Positions 33,823 through 35,351 of a DNA stretch of 64,000 nucleotides are shown one piece after another. The notes beneath the pieces were generated by a model, which had not been told where the DNA came from, did not search any database, and was given only the letters and a program-made list of their open reading frames with translations. Every line of letters begins with the position of its first letter. The first letter of the stretch is position 1. The position numbers were made by a program, and so were the translations under genes. This DNA comes from Candidatus Syntrophocurvum alkaliphilum. GTDB taxonomy: Bacteria > Bacillota > Syntrophomonadia > Syntrophomonadales > Syntrophomonadaceae. The stretch is from contig NZ_CP046457.1 in the NCBI RefSeq assembly GCF_009734445.1, positions 1,606,001 through 1,670,000 on the forward strand, written 5' to 3'.

Positions 33823-33897
33823 ATTCCCCACCTATTTTATTAATAAACTTATCCTACATTATAAAAGAAAATCTGGTAAGAATTAAGCAATAAAAAC

Positions 33898-33934
33898 AAA
33901 ATGCCTGAACATTATATGTTCAGACATTTTATTT
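33898..33934. terminator. Hairpin terminator
   Basis: Stem AAATGCCTGAACAT / ATGTTCAGACATTT with one mismatch and a short loop, then TTATTTATT. Between ybaK (minus, starts at 33822) and the SASP gene (minus, ends at 34043), so it terminates the SASP-side transcript. Confidence 0.7.
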
Positions 33935-34042: not shown

Positions 34043-34252
34043 TTAATTTTCTGCTTGTTTTTGTTTTGCTGCTTTTTGCCGCAGGCGTTTACTCATGATT
34101 CCTCCGATTTTGCCACACATAGCATTACTAAGTGATTCCCATCCATCTTTTTCTACCTGTTCCCAAATACCTAGTTCTTTTGCTATTTCGATTTTCATTA
34201 AATCTTTTTCAGTAATAACTTTTTTCTTTTTTGGCTTTTTCTTTTCAGAAAT
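34043..34252 (-). CDS. Small acid-soluble spore protein-like, apparently ATT start
   Basis: 69 residues. KIEIAKELGIWEQVEKDGWE and KIGGIMSKRLRQKAA match the two conserved blocks of alpha/beta-type SASP, DNA-coating spore proteins (E-A-KELG, then GxxGGxMxKRL). The frame has an in-frame TAA at 34256-34258, and the first possible initiator after it is ATT at 34250-34252, exactly six bases from a strong GGAGGTG (34259-34265). The next ATG (codon 19) would lose the Lys-rich head and has no ribosome site. ATT initiation is rare but known (infC). The Lys-rich N-terminus (KKKPKKKK) is unusual for the family. Confidence 0.78.
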   Translation of the reverse strand: MSEKKKPKKKKVITEKDLMKIEIAKELGIWEQVEKDGWESLSNAMCGKIGGIMSKRLRQKAAKQKQAEN

Positions 34253-34315
34253 GGATTACACCTCCACCCTATGTTTAATTATTTCATATAGTAGAGTCCC
34301 CATTTCTTCTACCTA

Positions 34316-35038
34316 TTATTTAATTGATTTTAAATCATCAATAAATTTATATAAGTCTTCAACCATACCCCTATAGTCTGGAATATAGTCTACATCACCT
34401 TTATCAATTAGCATATTTTCAACTAAAAATGTTGTCATACCCATTTTTCCAGATACTATATCCTCTCCTCTATCATTCCCAATCATAATACAATCTTTAG
34501 GGTCAACTTGAATTTTATCTGTTATTTCTTGATAGTATTCTATGTGTGGTTTACAAAAATGCATCAATTCATACGAAGTAATTAAACTGTAATCAAACCC
34601 ATCTAAACCAGCCCACTCAATTCTATTTTTTATTGCACTCATGGGAAAAACAGAATTTGTAGCTATTACAACTATGTAACCCTTTTCAAAGATCTTTGCC
34701 ATCATATCTCTCATACCAGGAATTGGTTGACAATAATCCTTAAGCTGTGGAAATCCTTTTTCATAAAAATAATTAAAAAATTTTCTTATTTCATTTTCTG
34801 AATAAGGCCACCTGTTTAGAAAATCCTTCATGAAAACTTCTTCATTTGTTAATTTTGGATCTTTATTACCAATCATAACAGCAGTAGATTGAAAAACTTT
34901 TTCTGCTAATGTTTCAGAGTTTTCAAAACCATATTCATTAGCCATTATTGCCATTTTTTTGAAATACTTAGGCAAAAAGTAGTTCATATCTATGTTTAAC
35001 AAAGTGCCATCTAAATCAAATAAAATTGCTTTAATCAC
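34316..35038 (-). CDS. HAD-superfamily hydrolase
   Basis: 240 residues from GTG 35038, preceded by GGGGG five bases up; the earlier in-frame ATGs at 35050 and 35065 have no ribosome site. Motif I ILFDLDGTLL carries the nucleophile and acid/base Asp, motif II is IATNS, motif III the Lys in FCKPH, and motif IV IGNDRGEDIVSGKMG. A helical cap lies between. Likely a phosphatase for a small metabolite; substrate unknown. Starts 13 bases after the preceding gene's stop. Confidence 0.87.
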   Translation of the reverse strand: MIKAILFDLDGTLLNIDMNYFLPKYFKKMAIMANEYGFENSETLAEKVFQSTAVMIGNKDPKLTNEEVFMKDFLNRWPYSENEIRKFFNYFYEKGFPQLKDYCQPIPGMRDMMAKIFEKGYIVVIATNSVFPMSAIKNRIEWAGLDGFDYSLITSYELMHFCKPHIEYYQEITDKIQVDPKDCIMIGNDRGEDIVSGKMGMTTFLVENMLIDKGDVDYIPDYRGMVEDLYKFIDDLKSIK

Positions 35039-35051
35039 TTTTACCCCCATT

Positions 35052-35351
35052 CTATTCAAAAGCATTTAATGAAGTTTTAACTACATCCATACCACTAACA
35101 AAATAAGCCAAGCGTAATGTTTCTTGTATTTCTTCATCAGAAGCACCCGCCATACGTGCTTGTTTTGCAAGAACCTTAACTCCTTCACTAGCACCTTTAA
35201 TAGCATCAAGTGCAAGTACTATAAGAAGTTTAGTTTTATCATCTAGGGCTCTAGTATCTAAAGCCTTAGATACTACTTCATGTATAACCTCAGCATATTC
35301 CGGGTCATATTGCTTCATTTCCTCAACAAACCAAGGTAACTTTTGACTCAT
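35052..35351 (-). CDS. Carboxymuconolactone decarboxylase-like (AhpD fold) protein
   Basis: 99 residues, AGGAGGT upstream. The all-helical segment KTKLLIVLALDAIKGASEGV, then KVLAKQARMAGASDEEIQET and LRLAYFVSGMDVVKTSLNAF, fits the CMD/AhpD family. The CxxC redox pair of peroxidase-type members is missing, so it is not an alkylhydroperoxidase; the role is unknown. Cotranscribed with the HAD gene. Confidence 0.8.
   Translation of the reverse strand: MSQKLPWFVEEMKQYDPEYAEVIHEVVSKALDTRALDDKTKLLIVLALDAIKGASEGVKVLAKQARMAGASDEEIQETLRLAYFVSGMDVVKTSLNAFE

Follow-up and report, generated by a model that had tools for sequence, protein, structure and literature searches.

An alpha/beta-type spore protein gene of Syntrophomonadaceae that very probably starts at ATT, and candidate AUH starts elsewhere in the family

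Introduction

The AUU starts found in the literature are few and, in the available parts of the sources, mostly single cases. Starts at AUU or AUA behind an extended Shine-Dalgarno (SD) sequence are reported, in the available text, to reach about 10% of AUG output in S. aureus grown in poor medium; for ccpN the figure rises to as much as 30% when the medium is rich, and its start is described there as conserved in B. subtilis (PMC13009471). The accessible portion of a second study has IF3 repressing noncanonical starts in both E. coli and Streptomyces (PMC5472188), and that of a third describes the translation of engineered AUU starts in clostridia (PMC11040787). Among open-licence papers, none was found that pairs small acid-soluble proteins (SASPs) with an AUU start codon, and none that treats Syntrophomonas spores together with SASPs. 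For Syntrophomonas wolfei, a family member of which named isolates exist, the titles and abstract openings of open-licence papers on start codons held nothing on AUU starts.

Here, we describe a SASP gene with a putative AUU start in a 64-kb stretch of DNA (the window), its orthologues in Syntrophomonadaceae, and candidate AUU, AUA and AUC (AUH) starts in unrelated genes of the family.

Results

The SASP gene and its start codon

A profile search of the 2.36 Mb single-contig genome that holds the window returned three SASP matches: two that we take to be the major and the SspF-like SASP, and the ATT-started one described here. The latter is a divergent third class of 69 aa with a Lys-rich N-terminus. 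Its 69-codon product scored 35.5 bits against PF00269, above the curated cut-off of 22 (residues 17-64 of 69), which bears out the SASP identity proposed in an earlier note on this DNA. A PDB sequence search with the protein gave no relative at E 0.01. The features of the gene are:

34043..34252, minus strand: SASP gene, alpha/beta-type, third SASP class of the genome; 69 aa from ATT, PF00269 match
34250..34252, minus strand: start codon ATT, assigned from SD placement and orthologue comparison
34259..34265, minus strand: Shine-Dalgarno GGAGGTG, six bases from ATT, SD score 15.3
34256..34258, minus strand: in-frame TAA directly 5' of TCC-ATT, read in the sequence
34196..34198, minus strand: first internal ATG, codon 18 after ATT, the start of a standard caller; weak SD (4.6)
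34043..34045, minus strand: SASP stop codon TAA, read in the sequence

Downward from 34270, the minus strand reads AGGGTGGAGGTG TAA TCC ATT TCT GAA. The in-frame stop, the GGAGGTG and the ATT six bases on, which the earlier note had described with no strand given, were therefore all seen on the minus strand. A start further upstream in the SASP frame is ruled out because of the in-frame TAA (34258-34256). The ATT is SD-optimal, and no ATG, GTG or TTG has a comparable SD. As had been claimed, gene callers shorten the protein: a caller restricted to ATG, GTG and TTG gave an ORF of 51 aa from the ATG at 34198, and the residues SEKKKPKKKKVITEK of the ATT-started product lie outside it. A scan of 69 ORFs of the window turned up no ATT start besides this one. 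On this reading of the sequence, a gene for a small spore DNA-binding protein very probably starts at ATT, with DNA binding putative from the family profile.

Orthologues in the family

Orthologues were sought in 54 genomes of the family, taken as Syntrophomonadaceae from its named loci, and found in 42 (E 1e-8 or better), with an intact 5' end in 41; L054, cut at a contig end, was left out of the counts. All in-frame codons were scored for SD pairing, blind to codon identity. The codon does not follow from the blind score alone, which in many genomes with an ATG start peaks at a codon next to the ATG; starts were then assigned by hand with the sequences, the start-like codon within reach of the SD being taken. 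The 41 starts comprised ATG in 26, ATT in 10, ATT or ATG in two (L015 and L051, where ATT is weighed against an upstream ATG), TTG in two, ATA in one and GTG in none, so that homologues carry both codons that the earlier note had considered for this place.

Of the 23 genus codes in the family, seven are represented among the clear ATT genomes (G000, G042, G034, G020, G011, G025, G041, G031, G017 and G005), and one of the ten is also on record as a named isolate, S. wolfei subsp. methylbutyratica JCM 14075 (L037). In all ten, the ATT is where the SD fits best, and the SD of every standard start is less good by comparison. It was the single top-scoring codon by the blind score in eight; in L024 it came second by 0.1, and in L007 it was second to an internal GAG. 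L026 has no ATG, GTG or TTG before the conserved motif, and L024 has none before codon 50.

This motif, E-I/V/T-A, which we presume to be germination-protease-like, was present in 41 of 41 intact orthologues, the same pattern having served as the anchor, and its cleavage is putative. The distance from start to motif is 15-19 codons in the ATT orthologues versus 15-23 in the ATG orthologues. The N-terminus is basic and mostly Lys-rich, and its basic character is seen in ATG orthologues as well. Between the ATT and the motif, L006 and L005 differ by three synonymous and no nonsynonymous changes; over the N-terminal part of other pairs, the synonymous/nonsynonymous counts were 0/1 (L006/L007), 6/7 (L024/L025) and 4/6 (L012/L015). 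The codon-substitution test for the ATT-started N-terminus is thus small and mixed. Among homologues from other families, SD scoring found an ATG, GTG or TTG within reach in L055-L062, and no ATT start was seen by eye in L063-L076 (L064 was ambiguous).

A quick species tree was built from ThrS, IF3, L35 and L20 for 40 genomes (G003, G010 and G032 absent), and 19 of its 37 inner branches were well supported. The ATT state changes at least four times on this tree, or five if the two ambiguous orthologues count as ATT. As read from these assignments, start-codon identity switches between ATG and ATT among the SASP orthologues.

Control genes

For infC, rpmI, rplT and thrS, the start-like codon with the best SD was called in 40 loci taken from the 51 genomes with a match. 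infC starts with ATC in 29 and ATT in 11 of the 40 loci, and ATG was called in none; AUH initiation therefore works in this lineage. The rpmI start was ATG in all 40, and that of rplT was ATG in 39 and GTG in one. Five AUH calls among 34 for thrS were rejected as artefacts: in three the adjacent codon is an ATG, and the other two fall where the stretch is cut off.

The major SASP starts with ATG in 22 of 24 loci and with ATT in none; the remaining two are L132, which has ATA beside its ATG, and L142, which is truncated. The SspF-like SASP was called in 23 of 24 loci (L166 was left uncalled), with TTG in 13, ATG in nine, GTG in one and no ATT; the ATG of L151 is internal because the locus is cut. 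A preference for TTG (13/23), with strong SDs (L147-L166, L002, L077-L079), was observed in this set. Since ATT was absent from the major and the SspF-like SASPs, it is a mark of the third class rather than of SASPs at large. The start position, its conservation, the ATG/ATT switching and the controls are all read from sequence comparison.

AUH starts in phosphohexomutase and RNase R

The earlier note had held ATT starts to be very rare outside infC, a statement that does not carry over to this family. The phosphohexomutase gene (PF02878) was examined in 30 of 46 genomes, each represented by its best copy (L336-L365; first copies only), and these loci are nearer to the window genome than average because the best-scoring 30 were taken. 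A first automatic count (n=30) gave ATT 12, ATG 11, ATA 3, ATC 3 and none 1. On re-reading, L349 and L353 became ATG, and L358 (ambiguous) and L351 (truncated) were removed, leaving 28 called loci: ATT 9, ATA 3, ATC 3 and ATG 13, or AUH in 15/28. Upstream in-frame standard starts of these 15 all have an SD of 5.5 or less, eight of the loci having no such start at all, and the first downstream standard start falls at codon 13 or later. In the copy of the window genome (L209:8071-9441, G000:C1:1552071), PF02878 begins at residue 3; it has no in-frame standard start upstream, and the first downstream is at codon 45. Outside the family, AUH was called in 0/19 (21 loci, two truncated).

RNase R was called in 29 of 30 family loci (L366-L395; L372 truncated) as ATT in four, ATA in two, TTG in one and ATG in 22, which gives AUH in 6/29; L378 and L380 were kept as ATT despite a weak-SD ATG at codon 4. 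The window genome's copy is at L211:14025-16133, minus strand. Among 30 outside loci (L445 truncated), one clear AUH start was found in 28 called, L430, with ATC after AGGAGGTG. The ATC call in L442 (SD 6.7) was judged an artefact; if kept, the outside count is 2/29.

Fisher p values for family versus outside were 6e-5 for phosphohexomutase and 6e-6 pooled with RNase R (21/57 vs 1/47), and overstate independence because the species are related. An AUH start in the SASP was found in 6/12 genomes with an AUH phosphohexomutase vs 1/11 without (p 0.07, or 0.03 including the two ambiguous SASPs), by hand counts confounded by relatedness.

Genome-wide scan

The pattern GGAGGTG-N4-8-ATT occurs at 29 sites in the window genome and is rarer than its reversed control (40). 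An open frame with no good-SD standard start was present at infC, the SASP, an epimerase-like gene and lysine 2,3-aminomutase. An orphan-SD scan covered 464 kb of this genome (a 400 kb sample plus the 64-kb window). It assigned standard starts to 359 ORFs, and in 47 others an orphan SD lay close to the 5' end. ATT stood in frame in 12 cases vs 4 and 5 out of frame. The corresponding counts were 4 vs 3 and 3 in G068 (33% GC), 8 vs 6 and 4 in G020, 7 vs 1 and 5 in the control G075, and 1 vs 0 and 2 in G074; noise was high in the scans of the GC-rich controls G070 and G075, and the orphan-SD scans are usable as leads only. Because other genomes show similar in-frame counts, the genome-wide ATT excess is weak and only suggestive, and the comparison of orthologues is the stronger test of family-wide AUH starts.

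Inspection by hand of the 464-kb scan picked out six likely AUH starts, judged from their sequences: phosphohexomutase, RNase R, MATE, YitT, polyprenyl synthetase and a periplasmic binding lipoprotein (ATA or ATT). The other orphan-SD cases were rejected. Likely ATT starts in the window genome, besides the SASP, include:

L177:823-1503, minus strand: epimerase-like gene
L185:1515-2783, plus strand: lysine 2,3-aminomutase gene
L208:3350-4765, minus strand: MATE gene
L209:2701-3564, minus strand: YitT gene

By the hand-picked count, the share of AUH-started genes in the window genome would be, very roughly, 1-2%. A SufS-like desulfurase gene (L214:16639-18027, minus strand) was observed to have no ATG, GTG or TTG from an SD-placed ATC/ATA to codon 125; it was left off the list of likely cases, as a possible one, because of a rival upstream GTG (SD 5.2). 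In G020, the NusG gene (L244:904-1503, minus strand) has GGAGGTG and an ATT (SD 21.2) that would extend the protein by ~29 residues; the rival start is a GTG at codon 31 (SD 14.2).

Nothing odd was seen in the initiator or other tRNAs among 18 loci scanned (of 30 taken, from 38 matches). The initiator anticodon arm of the window genome is GGG-CTCATAA-CCC, presumably the usual form.

Leader structure and neighbourhood

Three features flank the SASP start or gene:

34247..34307, minus strand: predicted leader hairpin, with a stem 34307-34299/34255-34247 over the ATT and a stem 34296-34290/34268-34262 over part of the SD
33894..33934, minus strand: predicted intrinsic-terminator-like hairpin 3' of the SASP
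34316..35065, minus strand: ORF just upstream, a HAD-type hydrolase gene named by eye

Folding of the leader hairpin gave z -4.4, and -3.8 on a slightly different stretch. The mean z for the 41 third-class leaders was -1.65, with 46% below -2, versus 0.07 for the major SASP (n=23), 0.22 for the SspF-like SASP (n=23), 0.73 for rplT (n=40) and -2.14 for infC (n=40). By this folding model, the third-class leaders are unusually structured relative to other SASPs. No difference in structuredness was found between ATT and ATG orthologues among the 41 compared, and the predicted structures vary from genome to genome; in part, they could be terminators that belong to the gene upstream. Within the available flanks, a homologue of the HAD-type gene lies upstream in 35/41 SASP loci and a YbaK-like homologue is present in 30/41. 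Coupling to an upstream peptide was considered for a 15-codon frame, from the ATG at 34303 to the TAA before the ATT (34256-34303, minus strand), and rejected; nothing similar was seen by eye in relatives. Within 150 bases upstream, a pattern that we take to be sigma-G/F-like was found in 2/41 orthologues.

Discussion

We consider it probable that the gene encodes a minor alpha/beta-type SASP that is translated from AUU, with an extended SD, decoding as fMet and low output, and that AUH starts, AUU more often than AUA or AUC, recur across the family in several unrelated genes. The extended SD (GGAGGTG) would position the 30S subunit at the ATT, where the initiator tRNA would read AUU as fMet despite the third-position mismatch. 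Initiation would then proceed at a fraction of AUG output and would presumably be IF3-sensitive, a sensitivity that is plausible from the literature on other genes. The predicted hairpin, which covers the ATT and some of the SD, could lower SASP translation further in the window genome. By analogy with published cases, the SASP may be made at a low level. AUH starts that follow a strong SD are probably tolerated or put to use in the family, with low translation as the result, and the SASP is best seen as one such case. The broader proposal, that AUU, AUA and AUC form a regular minor start class throughout Syntrophomonadaceae genomes, in unrelated housekeeping genes as well as the SASP and with orthologues moving between AUG and AUH, seems to us somewhat better than an even prospect.

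Among the alternatives, tolerated drift with no regulatory value fares best and is a real if lesser possibility. Weak starts would be allowed because the SD is strong and a minor SASP is needed in small amounts. On the species tree the start shifted to or from ATT at least four times, which agrees with it, as do the scatter of ATT over genera and the common use of TTG in the SspF-like SASP. Drift alone would nevertheless be expected to give GTG or TTG at least as often as ATT, and the 41 orthologues have ATT in 10, TTG in two and GTG in none. For the AUH habit as a whole, selected control and tolerated drift both stand as readings.

The earlier note had also envisaged an IF3-sensitive switch in translation, specific to the forespore, by which the SASP would stay low until late in sporulation; we regard this as unlikely. 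Repression of noncanonical starts by IF3 in Streptomyces and E. coli, as given in the available part of PMC5472188, would suit such a switch, as would the unusually structured third-class leaders. It is opposed by the ATG of 26/41 orthologues, since the special start is not kept; by AUU, AUA and AUC in housekeeping genes, so that the start is not confined to a spore gene; and by the simple sporulation-promoter pattern in only 2/41 loci. A special forespore timing of SASP translation is neither shown nor needed.

More doubtful still is a reading in which translation really begins at the internal ATG (34198, codon 18), giving a 51-aa SASP with the ATT there by chance. Such a product would retain most of the SASP domain, given the extent of the PF00269 match. 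The SD score at this ATG is 4.6, however, versus 15.3 at the ATT, and five orthologues (L005, L006, L007, L012 and L024) have no ATG at the corresponding place. The TTGs before the motif in the first four have SD scores of 6.4 or less, L024 offers no standard start ahead of codon 50, and the basic N-terminus is shared with ATG orthologues. A sequencing or assembly error for ATG, for which it speaks that the family search included no second genome of the window genome's genus code, is excluded because the ATT is spread over ten genomes in seven genera, one also as a named isolate record.

Returning to AUU-started translation of the SASP, standard gene finders would misread such genes, because ATT starts recur in the family's SASP and housekeeping genes. 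If AUU starts do recur in several family genes, gene callers shorten or miss proteins, and N-terminal domains would be cut in databases. Start-codon choice would also evolve quickly, as a tuning knob, and Syntrophomonadaceae would lend themselves to natural tests of whether start-codon discrimination by IF3 is relaxed or exploited.

Comparison with known systems

The window SASP lies above the cut-off of the alpha/beta-type family (PF00269), yet it belongs to a divergent third class with a putative AUU start. A close parallel is infC, which likewise has ATT or ATC after a GGAGGTG-type SD (40/40 family loci) and a structured leader. Unlike the SASP, infC is regulated autogenously, by the IF3 that it encodes, as far as the available sources describe it, a loop that the SASP does not have; and no ATG was called for infC, whereas the SASP often has one. 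The S. aureus genes cvfC1 (AUU) and ccpN (AUA) resemble the SASP as Firmicute genes with a weak AUH start and an extended SD, and ccpN also in a start conserved between species, on the available text of PMC13009471. They differ in being non-spore genes whose starts were demonstrated there by ribosome profiling and reporters, the SASP being known from sequence. Streptomyces sigR, in the accessible part of PMC5472188, shares a noncanonical start, a AGGAGGTG RBS and misannotation by gene callers; it differs in its GTC start, in encoding a sigma factor and in that IF3 repression was shown there. Finally, E. coli pcnB is reported to have a chromosomal AUU start that limits translation, a parallel to the putative start of the SASP; it is an unrelated gene with no spore role.
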